Positions 5,575 through 45,836 of a stretch of DNA of 57,535 bases are shown in pieces. Below the pieces are notes generated by a model, which had not been told where the DNA came from, made no database searches, and worked only from the letters and a program-made list of their open reading frames with translations. Where the stretch lies: positions 1-57,535 of the IMG/VR virus record IMGVR_UViG_3300047564_002687. The stretch is one strand, 5' to 3'. Within the stretch, counting starts at the first letter, position 1; every line of letters begins with the position of its first letter. Source of the stretch: a virus. The position numbers and the translations under genes were made by a program.

Positions 5575-5718
5575 ATGGCAAAACGTCCATCTTTTACTGG
5601 AGCACCTCACGTTGAGGGAACTCCTAAGGTTACTCGTCAGGGTCGTAGCAAAAACACTAAACTTGCTGCTACTGCTAGAAATGGAGCAAAAAAGAAATAT
5701 CGAGGTCAAGGCAAATAA
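5575..5718 (+). CDS. Small basic protein, 47 residues
   Basis: The frame ATG 5575 to TAA 5716-5718 encodes MAKRPSFTGAPHVEGTPKVT, then RQGRSKNTKLAATARNGAKKKYRGQGK. It is very basic, probably disordered, and could bind nucleic acid or a negatively charged partner. It starts 8 bases after the coiled-coil gene. Its stop codon overlaps a late promoter motif (5715-5721). Similar short basic proteins occur in cyanophage late regions, but no role is known to me. Confidence 0.65.
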   Translation: MAKRPSFTGAPHVEGTPKVTRQGRSKNTKLAATARNGAKKKYRGQGK

Positions 5719-5721
5719 ATA
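5715..5721 (+). promoter_or_regulatory. Late promoter motif ATAAATA, followed by GTTGAGGAG
   Basis: ATAAATA overlaps the stop codon of the 47-residue gene. The following GTTGAGGAG closely matches GTTGAGAAG after the late motif at 45459. The expected start, near 5727, lies before the hairpin at 5735-5783. Confidence 0.55.
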
Positions 5722-5734
5722 GTTGAGGAGATAG

Positions 5735-5783
5735 AAACCTCCTAAAAAGTTCTACATTTTGTAGTTCTTTTAGGAGGTTTTTT
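5735..5783 (+). terminator. Terminator-type hairpin whose 3' arm is the next gene's Shine-Dalgarno
   Basis: A 13-bp stem (5735-5747 with 5768-5780) plus an inner CTACA/TGTAG stem (5752-5756 with 5760-5764) is followed by a T-run (5778-5783). The 3' arm contains AGGAGG (5772-5777), placed 6 bases before ATG 5784. It therefore looks like both a terminator and a ribosome-site lock. Confidence 0.75.
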
Positions 5784-5975
5784 ATGGCTCTCAGTCCAGT
5801 TGATAAAAGTCAAGAGTTTATTCAATCTGGTATGAAGTTGATCACAGATCCATCATCGGATCAATTGTTAGAAAAAGTAAAAAAGGCAAAATACGAAATA
5901 CCCAAAGATCGTTATTCCAGACCATGTGGAGGATCGGGAGGATTTGATGATTTCGTTGAAAGATGGCATGAGTGA
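5784..5975 (+). CDS. Hypothetical protein, 63 residues
   Basis: The product reads MALSPVDKSQEFIQSGMKLI, then a helical Lys-rich middle (LLEKVKKAKYEIPKDR) and GGSGGFDDFVERWHE. It has a perfect AGGAGG ribosome site, but that site lies in the 3' arm of the hairpin at 5735-5783, so translation may be controlled. The family is not recognised. It precedes gp25. Confidence 0.7.
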   Translation: MALSPVDKSQEFIQSGMKLITDPSSDQLLEKVKKAKYEIPKDRYSRPCGGSGGFDDFVERWHE

Positions 5976-6400: not shown

Positions 6401-8197
6401 GTGCCTTACGCTCAAATCAATAATCTAGATTATTCTCAAATTAAAGAGAATTTAAAAAATTATCTAAAATCTCAATCAGAATTCACTGATTATGATTTTG
6501 AGGGTTCTGCTTTAAGTAATATTCTTGATGTTCTTGCATATAATACGTATTATACTGCATTCAACACCAATTTAATTGCAAACGAATTTTTCATTGATTC
6601 TGCTACTTTAAGAGACAATGTTATAAGAATTGCGAAGCAACTCGGATATAGACCTAGATCGAAAGTTGCTTCAAGATCAAAAATTAATTTTACATCAACA
6701 ATTGTAAGTCCAATACAACCTTCAACATATACATTAAAAAAGGGCACTGGATTTATTACAAATTACGATAACAGCTTATACAATTTTGTAGTTGTTGATG
6801 ATGTGACAGTGCCTGTAGAAGAGGGTGCTGCTGTTTTTACCGAAGTTGATATATTTGAAGGTAACTTAGTTACTGAGTATTTTGTTTATAATAAAACAAA
6901 AATTGATAACAGAATTATATTGTCAAATCCACAGATTGATGTTTCCAGTATTAGAATTAATGTATATGAATCACAATCTTCATCTGTAAAAAATATTTTT
7001 AATGTTGCTGAAAATATTTTAGACGTTGATTTTTCTACAAATATATTTTTTGTCGAGGAAGTTAGTGACGAGAAGTATGAAATTATATTTGGCGATGGTG
7101 TATTTGGAAGACAACTAGAGGACGGTAATTACATTGAAATTTCATACTTAGTTACAAATGGATCGGTAACAAACGGAGTAGAAAATTTTAGATTTAATGG
7201 TCTTCTTGTAGATGGCAGCAATCAGAGTTATCAAAATAATGTTGTAATTAATAATGTTCTAACTCCAGCATATGGTGGTGCTGAAATAGAGACTACCGAC
7301 AATATTAAGTTCATTGCTCCAAAGTATTTTGGAACTCAAAATAGAGCAGTTACGGCAGAAGATTTTAAACCAATAATTTCAAAAATTTACCCAAATGTTT
7401 CTGATATCATTACCTATGGTGGTGAGGATGAACAACCTCCAGAATATGGAGTTGTAAAAATTATAATTAAACCTAAACAAGGAGAAAAAATAACCAGTGT
7501 AACCAAGAATCAAATCGAAGAGGCTTTGAAACCATACATGGTTGCATCAGTAAGACCTCGTATTGTTGATCCCTCTGTTTTGTATATTGAAATTTCTAGT
7601 AACATTTATTATAGCAAATTAAAGACAAATTCAACTAGAGATCAAATTAAAACTGAAGTCATAAATTCTATTTCTGATTACATTGATAAATCAGACACAG
7701 AAAAGTTTTCTGGAAAATTAAGATATAGTAAAATTAATAGTGCTATTGATAAAGCAGATAGTTCTATAGAATCCAATGAAACATCTTTCACTATGAGAAA
7801 AGATGTCTTTCCAATATTAAATTCTAAGACATTTTATGAAGTATGTTATCAAAATTCTTTCGATAAGGACTGTGATGGTGCAACTGTATACACCACTGGA
7901 TTTGTAGTTTCAGAATATCCAAATTATACTGTATATCTCAAAGATGTGGATGGAAAAATGGTCCTATATAGGGTAGGAAATGATGGAAATGATTATATTA
8001 TTAACTCTGACGTTGGGAATGTGAATTACATTTCAGGAGAGATCAAATTATACAATTTGACTATTATAAAGGGTTCTTACCCAAATAATAAAATTGAATT
8101 TAGAGTAGTCCCTCTCAAACGAGATATTTTTGCTTTTCGTGAGCAATATTTGAAGGTTGATATTGAGAAAAGTACCTTTATCGCAAAAGCAGAATAG
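6401..8197 (+). CDS. gp6: Baseplate wedge protein gp6
   Basis: The 598-residue protein starts MPYAQINNLDYSQIKENLKN and carries DFEGSALSNILDVLAYNTYY, then NEFFIDSATLRDNVIRIAKQ and LGYRPRSK, typical of gp6/J-like baseplate proteins. Mid-protein AVTAEDFKPIISKIYPNVSD and YGGEDEQPPEYGVVKI are also family features. gp6 forms the iris-like inner ring of the baseplate together with gp25 and gp7. T4 gp6 has 660 residues. The start is GTG 6401. The C-terminal 150 residues are less conserved and may be phage-specific. Confidence 0.92.
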   Translation: MPYAQINNLDYSQIKENLKNYLKSQSEFTDYDFEGSALSNILDVLAYNTYYTAFNTNLIANEFFIDSATLRDNVIRIAKQLGYRPRSKVASRSKINFTSTIVSPIQPSTYTLKKGTGFITNYDNSLYNFVVVDDVTVPVEEGAAVFTEVDIFEGNLVTEYFVYNKTKIDNRIILSNPQIDVSSIRINVYESQSSSVKNIFNVAENILDVDFSTNIFFVEEVSDEKYEIIFGDGVFGRQLEDGNYIEISYLVTNGSVTNGVENFRFNGLLVDGSNQSYQNNVVINNVLTPAYGGAEIETTDNIKFIAPKYFGTQNRAVTAEDFKPIISKIYPNVSDIITYGGEDEQPPEYGVVKIIIKPKQGEKITSVTKNQIEEALKPYMVASVRPRIVDPSVLYIEISSNIYYSKLKTNSTRDQIKTEVINSISDYIDKSDTEKFSGKLRYSKINSAIDKADSSIESNETSFTMRKDVFPILNSKTFYEVCYQNSFDKDCDGATVYTTGFVVSEYPNYTVYLKDVDGKMVLYRVGNDGNDYIINSDVGNVNYISGEIKLYNLTIIKGSYPNNKIEFRVVPLKRDIFAFREQYLKVDIEKSTFIAKAE

Positions 8198-19831: not shown

Positions 19832-21931
19832 ATGGCTGATACTGCTTTAATTACGGATAAGTTTAGAGTTTATAACGCTAAACAATTTCTAGAATCTTTC
19901 GATGAGACAGCATCGACAAACCATTTCTTCTTTGTCGGAAAATCTGCAAATTGGCAGACATTGATTGAATACTATCAATATGACAGTAATAATGGTGCTA
20001 ATGAAGTTACGGTTGGAGATCCTATCAGTATTGAAACTCTGTCTGGATACCCAACAACAACTCATGCAACAGTAACTGCAGTGTTGGACGGAGCAATTCT
20101 GGTGACTGGTTTGGATCCTGCCGCTCTCACAACTCTAAAGTTTGGTTTAAATTTCAGCTGGGATGGTGCTGGTGGTAACGGGGACGCAAAAATTCTAAAA
20201 ATTAGACCAGCAACAGAAGACGAACCACTTCGTCCACTCGATAATCTTGAAGAGAAGTATAATTATTATAGAGAGATTATCGCTGCAAAGAGAATTTATA
20301 ACGATAAACTTGGAGAAGGAGTAGGAACCTCTCCAGATGGAAGTTTTGTAAGACCTGTTGTTAACAGACTTGATTATGGAAAGAATGCTGACATTGGTTT
20401 CACAGATCGCGTAGAACCATATGACATGTGGCGTCATAATTACGCCAACACAAACAATTTCAAGAGACTATCACAAGAATCTGGTCTGTGGCAAGGAACA
20501 GCATCAACTTCAAATCTGGAAATGATTGTTAGATGCCCAGATTACTCCGTTTGGATGTGTATTGACAATAATAGACAAGCTAATGGAGATGGAGCTACTC
20601 CAGACCTCTTTAATGGTCCTTCTACTTCCAGTCCAACACAGCTTCCAGAAGCGGTTGGATATTGTTCTCTAAATGGTGTATATACAACTACTAATGGTTA
20701 TAAGTGGAAGTATCTTTACACTCTATCAATCGAAGAAGTTCTAAGATTCCAATCACAGAAGTTTATTCCTGTGGCACCTTTTGCTGGTGTTTCTGTTGTT
20801 GGACCAGAAGTAGTTACAATTCTTCGTGGTGGAACTGGATATCTTGGTGGCGGAAGTGGCGAACTTTATGCTCCAATCAATGGTGATGGTCAGATTAGCG
20901 ATACTGAAATGAAGATCGCTAAACTCACAATTACAAATGGTGTTATTACAAAAGCTCGTGTTCTTACTACTGGTGGGACAACTCCAGAAACAACTAAGAC
21001 ACCTACCGAATACTCATTTGCAAAGGTTAAATTAGTTCCAGGTGCTGCTTTAGCAGTTCCAGATGGACAAAAGTATGGTCTATACAAAAATGCCACTTTA
21101 ACAACTCTCGCAGTTTTAAACACTGACGTTCCTGCTAACGTATTAAACAGAGGAGATGTTGAGGTTGTAATTCCACCTCAAGGTGGATATGGTGCATCGG
21201 GTAATGTTGGAACAGAAGGTTTTGGCAAATTTATTGAGCAACTCAATGCAAAGAGAGTTATGTGCAATATTCGCCTAACCTTTGCTGAAGGCGCAGGAGA
21301 TTTCCCTGTAACCAACGACTTTAGAAGAATTGGTCTACTAAGAGATCCTCTTGCTTTTGATGGTGCTGGCGGTGCAGTAATTGATAACACAGACGCTCCT
21401 GCTTATGATACAGCTCGTCAAACATATGCTTTAGCATTTAATACTGGAGCTGGAAATACCTATGTTGGTAATTTTACAGTTGATGAAACAATTACTCAGA
21501 CACTTACTCTAACTGGTGGACTTAGTGTTCAAGCAAAAGCAATTGTTACAGAATGGATTCCCAATGATGATGCTGATCCAACTGCTGGTGGTATTTTAAG
21601 ATATTATCAAGATCCAGCACTTCACTCAGCAACAAATGGAAAGGTATATCCATTCTATACTGGAGCCTCAGGTGCTGTAACTGCAGTTAGTGGTCTTACT
21701 GGATCAACTAGCGGTTCACATGGATCAAATGCTCCTGACTTTGCTACAGGAAATACAGCATACAGCGCAACTGCTTTAGGTTTAACTGTAGATTCTGTTG
21801 CATTAACTGCAAAAGATCTATATCCTGAACTTCAACCATATAGTGGAGAAATCATCTATGTTGAAAATAGAAGATTAATTACTCGCGCTATTGACCAAAT
21901 TGAAGATATTAAACTAGTTATTGAATTCTGA
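19832..21931 (+). CDS. gp8: Baseplate wedge protein gp8, expanded
   Basis: The C-terminus (YSGEIIYVENRRLITRAIDQ, then IEDIKLVIEF) matches the end of T4 gp8. The N-terminal half shows FFFVGKSANW, PYDMWRHNYA and a WKYLYTLSIEEVLRF stretch in gp8 order. gp8 sits at the outer part of the baseplate wedge and binds gp7 and gp10. At 699 residues it is twice T4 gp8 (334). The extra part lies between about residues 325 and 660 and includes a GGTGYLGGGSGELY module like those in neighbouring giant proteins. It has its own late promoter. Confidence 0.85.
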   Translation: MADTALITDKFRVYNAKQFLESFDETASTNHFFFVGKSANWQTLIEYYQYDSNNGANEVTVGDPISIETLSGYPTTTHATVTAVLDGAILVTGLDPAALTTLKFGLNFSWDGAGGNGDAKILKIRPATEDEPLRPLDNLEEKYNYYREIIAAKRIYNDKLGEGVGTSPDGSFVRPVVNRLDYGKNADIGFTDRVEPYDMWRHNYANTNNFKRLSQESGLWQGTASTSNLEMIVRCPDYSVWMCIDNNRQANGDGATPDLFNGPSTSSPTQLPEAVGYCSLNGVYTTTNGYKWKYLYTLSIEEVLRFQSQKFIPVAPFAGVSVVGPEVVTILRGGTGYLGGGSGELYAPINGDGQISDTEMKIAKLTITNGVITKARVLTTGGTTPETTKTPTEYSFAKVKLVPGAALAVPDGQKYGLYKNATLTTLAVLNTDVPANVLNRGDVEVVIPPQGGYGASGNVGTEGFGKFIEQLNAKRVMCNIRLTFAEGAGDFPVTNDFRRIGLLRDPLAFDGAGGAVIDNTDAPAYDTARQTYALAFNTGAGNTYVGNFTVDETITQTLTLTGGLSVQAKAIVTEWIPNDDADPTAGGILRYYQDPALHSATNGKVYPFYTGASGAVTAVSGLTGSTSGSHGSNAPDFATGNTAYSATALGLTVDSVALTAKDLYPELQPYSGEIIYVENRRLITRAIDQIEDIKLVIEF

Positions 21932-41700: not shown

Positions 41701-44700
41701 AAGAGTTAGTATATTTGTAAAACCTTCTAATAATTTTAAAGATATTTCTGTCACTCCAGCGTCAATTGCCGCTAATCCAGCATTGGCAACCTCAGATGCT
41801 TTTATTACATTTTCTGGATACGGATATACAGAACAAGATGTATTGACTCCTTCCGAAGTTACTAATGCTCCAGCAACAATTACCAATGCTGTATATACTT
41901 CAGATACTAAAATATCTGTTGATGGATTCTTATACGAAGGTCAGTCTATAATTGGAACTCAATCATTTATTAAATCCGGATTAACTGGAGATTTTGCTGA
42001 GGGTGGTGTTGGTGCTGCCTTTAATATTAAGCAAACTGCTGGTGGAACATACAATGTTTCTATTTTGGACCAGGGATCTAATTTTAGTGTTGGTGAAAAA
42101 ATTGTAGTCCCAGGTGCTGAATTGAATGGTGGTATTGCTTCAGCAACCTTTGTTTCATTACAATCAAATGGAACTGGATATACAGATGGCACATATACTA
42201 ATATTGCTGCAACTACTAATGTTGGAAGTGGTCTCACTTTAAATTTTGACGTGATTGCTGGATCTATTGATCCAACATCAGTTGAGGTAAATAATGGAGG
42301 CACTGGAATTCCTATTGAAACTACTGGAACAATTACCGGAATTTCAAATACTAGTCCTGCCACATTTACAGTTGAATCTACTTTAAATGATCTTGTAATT
42401 ACAGTTACTAAAGTTGATGACAATTCAAGAGTAACTTTAACTACCCAAAATCCTCATAATTTTGTCCCTCCCTTAGGAAGAACAACGATTGATATTTTAG
42501 TTGAAGGAATAACATCAACATTATCTACAGGTAAAGGTTTTAATGGTAGATTTACTGCTGAAGTTGCTGATAGTGTTACACTCGTTTATAATATTTCTTA
42601 CAATCCAGGAACTCGGATAAGTGGAGGAACTGCCTATAATGTTTCTGTTGACGTTGTTAATGATACCTTTGCTAGTTTCTCTAACAAATTATTCTTTAAT
42701 ATCAATCAACCGACAAATGATCCCGTATATCCTTACATTAGGTTTATAAACAATGCCACATATAATGGAGTTAATGTAAGCGTTGAAACAACTGCTCCAC
42801 ATGGTTTATCAATTAACCAAGAAGTTAGAGTTTCTGGAATCAGAACATCAAGAGCTGGAAGTGATTGGAACTCAGGAAAAGCAATAGTTTTAGCAACTGG
42901 TTTTACCGCAACCACATTTTCATACGCAAAAGTTGTTGGTGGTGGAAATCCAGGCGTTTATGTAAGTGGAGGAGAAGTTACAAATCCATATGTAAAAGTT
43001 CTTGGTGGTATTTACACAAAAGATTTCAATCGTATTATATTTGTTAACACAAAGGACACTCCCCAAGATGGAATTCCATCTGATAAAACTCAAGACTTTT
43101 TAGTTAGGGATATTAATTTTAGACAGATATCAAATGATGGATTTAATGTTCAGGATGGACCAAAGCATAATTTTTATATTTTAAATTCAAATACTTTGGC
43201 GATTACAAGAAGATTAAACATTCCAATTACATCAATTACATATATTCCGGAATCGCTTGAGTATGAAGTGACTTGTTCGCAACCACATGGATTATGGGAA
43301 GGGAACGCGATCAGTATAGCAGTTACAGGAGGAACTCCATCTCCAATTGATCCCGATTTATACAATACTCCTACTGGAAATGTCTCACCAGATGAAGTAA
43401 CTTTAAAAGTCTCCGATACAGTTTTTAGATATACAGTTTATAGAATTGGAAGAGATCCTGCTACACCAGTTAGTATAACATCAGTTACCGGAACAGTTAA
43501 CAAACCAATTGGTGTTGGAACTGGAGATGAAGATATATTTGTTGGACCAACAAATGCTGGAAATGCTAGGGATATTGTTAAATTTACAGGACTTACTGGT
43601 GCTCCAGGAATTAGCAATGAGAAATTTTATTATATTGTGAACGCTGAGCAATCTAGTGCAAATAATACATCTTACATTACTTTTAGACTATCAAATACTA
43701 AAAATGGTGCCCCAATTTCATTCTCATTAGATATCTCTAGTGCGACTTATAATAGATCATTGGAGAAAGCAATTATCCAAGTTCCAGGAACTACACCACA
43801 TGGACTACTTCTTGGAAATGAAGTTAACATTACTGGTGTTTCTTCGCAGGCATATAATGGATTAGTAACATTAACTGATATTATTTCTCCAACTATATTT
43901 GCGTATTCATTACCAGCATCTCAAGGAATACCAGATACAACAAATCAAAGTATTACAAAAGTATTGCGAGTTGGAACACCAGGATCGGTTGTTACTAAAA
44001 GGGTAGAGGCATCCTTAACAAATTTGAGAAATTTAGTTATTAGAACAACTGGAGGTGGAGATACTACATTAAAAGATATTGCTGTTGGAATGAGAATTAC
44101 AACTGCAACAACTGGAGTTGGAAGTTCCGGTGTCGCTTTACCAAACTCAGCAACAACAGTTTATTTAGTTACTGGGTGGAATCCATCAACTAGAACTATT
44201 ACAATAGATAGAGATATTGCTGCGGCAATTACAGTGAATAATGCTAATTGTGAAATTACATTGAGCGCAAATGTAACTGGTTCAAAAGCAATCGCATTTA
44301 CAAGAAGTGTAGATGCAACTCCAGGAACTTATACTGGACTCAATCAAGTTCAAGTTGGTCAGAGAGTGAATAATGGAACAACAACAGCAATTCCTACTGG
44401 TGCTGAAATCATGTCAGTATATTCTAGCACACAGGATATTCCTGGAACTACAGAAACAAATACTTATTATATGGCAACATTGGATTTACCACTGACGGGA
44501 AATATAATAAATTTACAAACAGTTACTGTAAATGATAATTTAGCATCTTATAAATCAATAAGACTTCGCAATTTTACAGGAACTCCACTAATTGGATCGG
44601 AAATTGTTAATGTTGACGGAAGCAATAATACAATACCAACCTTTGAAACTGGAACTACTATAACATCAGTTAAAACTTATACGGTTGGGGCAACTAGTGG

Positions 44701-45244: not shown

Positions 45245-45251
45245 TAAAACT

Positions 45252-45440
45252 ATGGAAACATCTAAATTAAGAGAAAATTTTGAGGCGCAGCTGAAAAAAA
45301 TTAATGAAACAATTGTTGGTATTGAAAATGATCTAGAGAGAGCTAAAGAATATAAAGCAAAACTTGTCGGTGGTATGGAAACATTAGACATTTTAGAAAG
45401 GGGAGAAATTCCAGAAGAAATGCCTGGAATTACAGAGTGA
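45252..45440 (+). CDS. Small coiled-coil protein, 62 residues
   Basis: The product METSKLRENFEAQLKKINET, then IVGIENDLERAKEYKAKLVG..., is a continuous heptad helix with an acidic end. The frame is open further upstream, but ATG 45252, just after the giant gene's stop at 45244, is the natural start. The stop is followed by the hairpin with a late promoter in its loop. Function unknown; possible fibre assembly partner. Confidence 0.7.
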   Translation: METSKLRENFEAQLKKINETIVGIENDLERAKEYKAKLVGGMETLDILERGEIPEEMPGITE

Positions 45441-45448
45441 TCTAAATT

Positions 45449-45483
45449 TCCCCCTTCCATAAATAGTTGAGAAGGGGGATTTT
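45449..45483 (+). promoter_or_regulatory. Hairpin with a late promoter in its loop and the Shine-Dalgarno in its 3' arm
   Basis: TCCCCCTTC (45449-45457) pairs with GAAGGGGGA (45471-45479), followed by TTTT-type sequence. The 13-base loop is CATAAATAGTTGA, which contains ATAAATA (45459-45465). The 3' arm's G-run lies 7 bases before ATG 45486. It can act as terminator, promoter and ribosome-site control. Confidence 0.7.
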
Positions 45484-45485
45484 CT

Positions 45486-45836
45486 ATGTCAGCAGTTCCG
45501 ATTAATTTAACTATAGAGTCTGGTTCCGACTGGGCAGTTGAGTTCAATCTTCGTGACGAGAACGGAGATTATATTGACCTGACTGGATATAGTTTAAGTT
45601 GTAAAATGGCAAGAAACTATACAACGACAACAAAGTATAGTTTAAATCCTCAGATCATAACTCCTGCCACTGGTCTTATAAAACTATCAATGCCTAATAC
45701 TGGTGGAACTTTAGTCACTAAAACACAAGATCTGAAACCAGGAAGATATCTTTGGAATTTATTAATCACCAATCAAGGTGGAGATACTGATAGAGTTATA
45801 GAAGGCGTAGTTGTAGTCAAACCAGGAGTTCTATGA
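45486..45836 (+). CDS. Small beta-sandwich structural protein, 116 residues
   Basis: The product starts MSAVPINLTIESGSDWAVEF, then NLRDENGDYIDLTGYSLSCK, a layout like the N-terminal domain of phage receptor-binding or upper baseplate proteins (I..GSDW....L.D..G...DLTGY). It ends GRYLWNLLITNQGGDTDRVI EG. It overlaps the next gene by 4 bases (ATGA). I infer an attachment or capping role; no direct family match. Confidence 0.7.
   Translation: MSAVPINLTIESGSDWAVEFNLRDENGDYIDLTGYSLSCKMARNYTTTTKYSLNPQIITPATGLIKLSMPNTGGTLVTKTQDLKPGRYLWNLLITNQGGDTDRVIEGVVVVKPGVL

Follow-up and report, generated by a model that had tools for sequence, protein, structure and literature searches.

Position 45,449 of the 57,535-nucleotide stretch of DNA analysed here (the window), an IMG/VR virus contig of 57.5 kb that represents a partial genome and carries structural genes of the T4-like cyanophage type, probably marks a transcription-unit boundary, at which a hairpin resembling an intrinsic terminator carries a gp55-type late promoter nested in its loop. 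The basis for this reading is the anatomy of the hairpin, compensatory pairing among relatives, an association with T-runs, a link to the upstream gene, and the predicted masking and release of a Shine-Dalgarno (SD) sequence. We hypothesize that RNA arriving from the upstream baseplate/tail-fibre operon would contain both arms, fold before the U-tract and be terminated, and that in any read-through RNA that leaked past this point the SD of the next gene would be locked in the 3' arm. A polymerase initiating at the loop promoter would start where the 3' arm begins, and the RNA that it made would have no hairpin, would not be terminated and would present a free SD at its start. The gene at 45,486 and the genes behind it (the tail-fibre module here, gp13-16 in other phages) would depend on the nested promoter, which would set their dose and their unit apart from the upstream operon.

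Hairpin anatomy and the predicted nested late promoter

The preliminary description placed ATAAATA in the 13-base loop of a 9-bp stem, and the sequence, RNA folding and simulations all bear this out. Positions 45,449-45,479 read TCCCCCTTC-CATAAATAGTTGA-GAAGGGGGA, forming nine perfect base pairs (six of them G-C) around a 13-nt loop that contains the box, and the 3' arm GAAGGGGGA is followed by TTTTCTATG with the ATG at 45,486 (Table 1). Folded as RNA alone at 37 C, the hairpin has a minimum free energy of -18.8 kcal/mol (z = -3.2), and 0/200 shuffles were equally stable. The same design was also sought elsewhere in this genome, as had been proposed, and the site turned out to be the only TAAATA of the window in a stem of at least 9 bp with at least 6 G-C; TAAATA in such a stem arose in 0/300 first-order Markov simulations of the whole window. 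Together, the single site and the simulations indicate that the structure did not arise by chance.

The stem has the stability and G+C-richness of a terminator (9 bp, 6 G-C). The U-tract behind it is short (ATTTTCT, where relatives usually have 5-7 T), and the loop measures 13 nt if the perfect stem is counted or 8 nt with the inner pairs, against a textbook range for terminators of 3-8 nt; several gp13 relatives have shorter loops. A simple terminator scan restricted to loops of 3-8 did not list the hairpin. For annotation, this means that short-loop terminator finders and structure-blind promoter finders can both miss the element.

The box lies on the coding strand, 20 nt before the ATG, and matches the motif of T4-like late (gp55) promoters. 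The T4 late promoter is TATAAATA, with the motif occupying -13 to -6 (PMC1524935), and NATAAATA is the cyanophage late promoter described in S-PM2 (PMC2984593). Motif, strand and start-codon distance of the window box are the same as in the NATAAATA promoters of S-PM2 and Syn9 and in CTAAATA of Aeh1 (PMC2984593, PMC1524935). The ATAAATA 7-mer is not enriched in the window (14 found, 27.6 expected). The coding strand holds 13 of the 14 copies (p = 0.002), and ten of these 13 stand 9-62 nt upstream of an ORF start, a strand bias and placement consistent with use as the cyanophage late promoter NATAAATA. We infer that the promoter is used; with the T4 spacing, its predicted +1 falls at 45,471, the first base of the 3' arm. 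This is the position near which the preliminary description expected an RNA lacking the 5' arm to begin, and RNA started there would be unable to form the stem. In the literature searched, which covered few subscription papers, we found no description of cyanophage late promoters in hairpin loops.

Table 1. Coordinates of the hairpin, its neighbouring genes and the structural genes of the window.
Feature	Position	Strand	Remarks
Baseplate wedge	6401-8197, 19832-21931		
Giant ORF, 2154 aa	38780..45244	+	unmatched in PHROG; ends a series of giant baseplate/tail-fibre-like ORFs
Upstream small ORF, 61 codons, phrog_580	45255..45440	+	family precedes the hairpin in 30/33 stem-bearing loci
Hairpin 5' arm TCCCCCTTC	45449..45457	+	perfect complement of 45471-45479; identical in L002 and L003
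Loop CATAAATAGTTGA, 13 nt	45458..45470	+	8 nt in the predicted fold via inner CA/TG pairs
Predicted late (gp55-type) promoter box CATAAATA, -13 to -6	45459..45465	+	consensus match, strand bias, position
Predicted transcription start (+1)	45471	+	inferred from T4 spacing; about 2 nt uncertainty
Hairpin 3' arm GAAGGGGGA, putative SD of 45486	45471..45479	+	anti-SD energy, spacing to ATG
T-rich tail TTTTCT	45480..45485	+	terminator-like U-tract; most relatives have a longer one
Downstream gene, 116 aa, phrog_1084 / phrog_3304 ('L-shaped tail fiber protein assembly')	45486..45836	+	
gp13-type neck	53539		
Head closure	54368		
Tail sheath stabiliser	55309		
Small terminase	56145		

Recurrence in related phages

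Searching the phage collection at the DNA level with the 1.4 kb that surround the site produced no match, and relatives were found by protein and pattern searches. The preliminary description had suggested looking for the same stem-loop-promoter design in relatives, where it does recur, with compensatory changes in the stem. Two near relatives (L002 and L003) carry the identical hairpin, five others at 50% protein identity (L004-L008) have a different stem, ACCCTTCC-TAAATAGTTT-GGAAGGGT, with the box still in the loop, and other stems again enclose an unchanged TAAATA in S-PM2, S-RSM4 and IMG/VR contigs. The S-PM2 hairpin precedes gp13, at about 66.8 kb. Many relatives, both marine and freshwater, have promoter-in-loop hairpins with differing stems, located upstream of gp13 (neck) or of tail-fibre-assembly genes. 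When one stem family was sought by its pattern, at least 120 stretches were found, and among the matches listed most precede gp13; this one-family element matches 28 annotated records of Synechococcus phages, and in 24 of the 28 a neck gene is annotated under the match.

Frequencies were determined in two samples of 79 loci each, gp13 and tail-fibre assembly, chosen by protein and not by hairpin. TAAATA occurs within 90 nt in 53/79 gp13 loci, with a strong stem in 25 of the 53, and in 75/79 tail-fibre assembly loci, with a strong stem in 9 of the 75. With a strong stem absent from 66 of the 75 tail-fibre homologues that carry the promoter, the stem is an add-on at one gene junction, one that the downstream gene does not need, and with many homologues working without it the stem is not essential. 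Phages that keep the promoter and lack the stem had been named beforehand as evidence against the design; they do exist among distant homologues (box kept and stem absent in P-HM2, DSL-LC02, S-SRM01 and S-SSM7), which refutes the design as a universal rule, though not for the lineage of the window.

Over six phage genomes plus the window, a strong stem encloses 12/297 TAAATA boxes that precede ORFs, as compared with 22/2112 permuted hexamers (4-fold, p = 4e-4), and 4/297 have both a strong stem and a T-run, as compared with 1/2112. A genome-wide rule that late promoters sit in hairpins is rejected, as only 12 of the 297 boxes do.

Possible translational gating and termination

Two functions can be read from the hairpin, control of translation and termination of transcription. 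The 3' arm contains GAAGGGGG, which pairs with the anti-SD ACCUCCUUU at -11.3 kcal/mol (T4 gene e reaches -11.5 in the same calculation), the anti-SD being the canonical bacterial tail, from which that of the host may differ. This SD is about 7 nt from the ATG and is predicted to be unpaired with a probability of 0.10 in read-through RNA and of 0.56 in late-start RNA, in agreement with the earlier proposal that it is hidden in the one and free in the other. The same predicted change from masked to freed is found in most of the relatives tested.

Such switching has precedents in T4: the SD of e, soc, 49 and the I-Tev genes is hidden in long early RNA, and transcripts begun at late promoters within the structure do not include the 5' strand (PMC3014915, PMC2988022). 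The hairpins of e, soc, 49, I-TevI, I-TevII and I-TevIII share with the 45,449 site a late promoter inside or beside the 5' strand, and in the window, as in T4, the long RNA is predicted to hide the SD and the late RNA to be without the 5' arm. The structural evidence and, by analogy, the T4 precedents (e, soc, I-TevI/II) support the logic by which read-through RNA would fold and RNA lacking the 5' arm would not. As a positive control, T4 was scanned for TAAATA in the loops of strong hairpins, and the three matches were e, soc and I-TevII, all without a T-run; the element at 45,449 therefore differs from these as a variant of a known T4 device. Whereas the T4 hairpins gate late genes within early/middle transcripts and have no U-tract, the 45,449 hairpin has neighbours that are both predicted to be late and a T-run after its stem, and in most of its relatives the SD is too far from the ATG to be the main point.

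The precedents raise the possibility, which we consider unlikely, that the element is a translational gate of the T4 gene e type and nothing more, with SD masking as its job and termination minor or absent. The window itself accommodates this well, as its SD is strong, well spaced and predicted to be masked and then freed, its U-tract is short, and T4 e, soc and I-TevI are known to be arranged in this way. The relatives do not. From the G-run to the ATG there are 7 nt in the window and 10 nt in L004, but 12-19 nt in the gp13 relatives, whose G-run pairs weakly with the anti-SD (-4 to -6 kcal/mol) and whose stem is kept all the same. With a spacing of 7 to about 19 nt, SD masking cannot be a general constraint; the predicted masking is strong in the window and not a constant feature across relatives. 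A gate would also leave two further observations aside, namely the T-run that is nearly universal in stem-bearing relatives and missing from T4 e, soc and I-TevII, and a hairpin presence that tracks the upstream gene.

These two observations point to termination. A T-run of at least four between box and ATG is found in 30/34 stem-bearing and 21/94 promoter-only loci (p = 1e-11), and phrog_580 lies upstream in 21/24 stem-bearing and 7/54 stemless gp13 loci (p = 3e-10) and in 9/9 stem-bearing and 4/66 stemless tail-fibre loci (p = 6e-9), these Fisher p-values being descriptive and overstating independence because the loci share ancestry. In three related gp13 loci (L235, L245 and L266) the stem is kept and there is no T-run of at least four. 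The stems stand 6-9 nt behind the upstream stop codon (8 nt in the window, behind the phrog_580 ORF). As phrog_580 is constant upstream while the downstream gene varies, the element follows the upstream gene, and the near-constant T-run, the stop-codon proximity with the phrog_580 link, and the variable SD spacing favour termination as the shared function. Intrinsic (Rho-independent) terminators likewise have a G+C-rich stem and then a T-run, 6-9 nt after an upstream stop; unlike them, the 45,449 element has a promoter box for a loop, a short U-tract in the window, and a 3' arm that would be the leader of the next mRNA. Termination, and any effect of the hairpin at the protein level, are predictions. 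Within the window both termination and masking look good, and given a U-tract weaker than that of relatives, SD masking may be the more important there.

The T-run, the 6-9 nt to the upstream stop and the phrog_580 link could also be explained by a terminator of the upstream operon alone, the loop TAAATA being A/T-rich sequence with no promoter activity and the downstream genes being expressed via read-through. We regard this as very unlikely, because the distance from TAAATA to ATG is the same with or without a stem (75/79 tail-fibre homologues; median 23 nt either way), the box in the loop stays constant as the stem around it varies in sequence, and NATAAATA is an accepted cyanophage late promoter.

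Selection on the RNA helix

When 12 distinct hairpins were compared in the same register, 97% of cells paired, and 7/11 pairs had changes on both sides. This level of covariation was reached by 0/500 shuffles, and sliding the arms by one column destroyed the pairing, so that only the correct register pairs. The count covers hairpins in one register and leaves out those of the window, L004, L280 and L048, whose arms lie in another. Conserved pairing with compensatory changes is strong comparative evidence for a selected RNA helix.

Covariation across the 12 distinct stems bears on a simpler view, in which the site is a plain late promoter and the stem a chance or neutral palindrome. Most of the distant homologues have the promoter and no stem, which would suit this view, but a chance palindrome is rejected by the 0/300 simulations, and the hairpin recurs before two unrelated downstream genes; altogether, we find it highly improbable. 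More improbable still is a palindrome that acts as an operator, processing or packaging signal at the DNA level or in RNA-protein recognition and not as an RNA hairpin: although the inverted repeat brackets the promoter as an operator would, and the late promoter of I-TevI overlaps its operator, stems that vary freely between phages with pairing kept, G-U pairs among them, disfavour a sequence-specific protein operator.

Genomic setting and possible role

The preliminary description spoke of read-through from a giant gene upstream of the hairpin. The giant ORF is indeed present, but the phrog_580 ORF intervenes between it and the hairpin. It had also been proposed that the hairpin insulates timing. 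The genes upstream are baseplate and tail-fibre genes with ATAAATA boxes of their own, from which both sides of the hairpin are predicted to be late; early-to-late timing as the main purpose at 45,449 is therefore disfavoured, and it is more likely that the hairpin separates late transcription units and doses.

In comparison with L002 and L003, the stretch from 45,249 to 45,488 looks like a recombination boundary at a gene junction, at the 5' edge of the hairpin. Identity is about 79% upstream, 39/39 across the hairpin and 95-97% downstream, and the jump at the 5' edge means that, relative to these two phages, the hairpin sequence travels with the downstream gene.

A second hairpin of the window (5735-5780) has 13 bp, AAACCTCCTAAAA...TTTTAGGAGGTTT; its 3' arm includes AGGAGG and is followed by TTTATGG, and the hairpin precedes an ORF of phrog_1414 at 5784-5975. 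Its ATAAATA (5715-5721) lies upstream of the 5' arm, and late RNA would hold the whole hairpin, a geometry opposite to that at 45,449.

A broader proposal, which we offer as speculation and think unlikely, is a widespread cyanophage module that links two late operons through a single hairpin, closing the first and opening the second; termination might then be coupled to re-initiation, and SD masking would silence any leak. Bacterial polymerase has been found in vitro to diffuse after intrinsic termination and to re-initiate at nearby promoters (PMC6978380), and termination at such a hairpin would leave RNA polymerase within a few bases of the nested late promoter. Independently of this speculation, if the boundary element works as hypothesized at the outset, T4-like cyanophages, which are abundant at sea, would have in one self-contained element of 30-40 bases a stop, a start and a lock on translation for use between structural operons. 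The T4 lysozyme-type gate would be extended from early-to-late timing to the separation of late units, a single principle would be realised in stems of many kinds, and a compact, transferable part for stacking insulated genes would be at hand.

Variants and other sites

In five loci (L197, L204, L216, L219 and L224), just before a gp13-type start, the box overlaps the 5' arm of a terminator-like hairpin, exemplified by ATAAATACCTCTAGGAAACTAGAGGTATTTTTTTATGG in L216, and the predicted RNA start is in the loop. Folding of two such cases gave SD masking in L216 only. The same logic in a different layout suggests that what recurs is a start inside a terminator and not a particular sequence. Four other gp13-type loci (L198, L231, L256 and L261) have TAAATA followed by (A)TAAGAAGGGT with no matching 5' arm; a 3'-arm sequence that persists without a hairpin may itself act as a leader or SD.

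Between gp19 (tail tube) and gp20 (portal) of Syn9, near 113,916 (L192), TTACCCTGATAAATAGATCAGGGTAA holds a late box in a hairpin loop with no T-run. Promoter-in-loop hairpins with a T-run occur in S-RSM4 near 44,480 (L144), behind thioredoxin/small ORF genes, and in DSL-LC02 near 120,684 (L168), behind a MazG-like gene/small hypothetical ORF. These last two sites may mark a passage from early to late genes, a setting in which insulating the timing would be reasonable.
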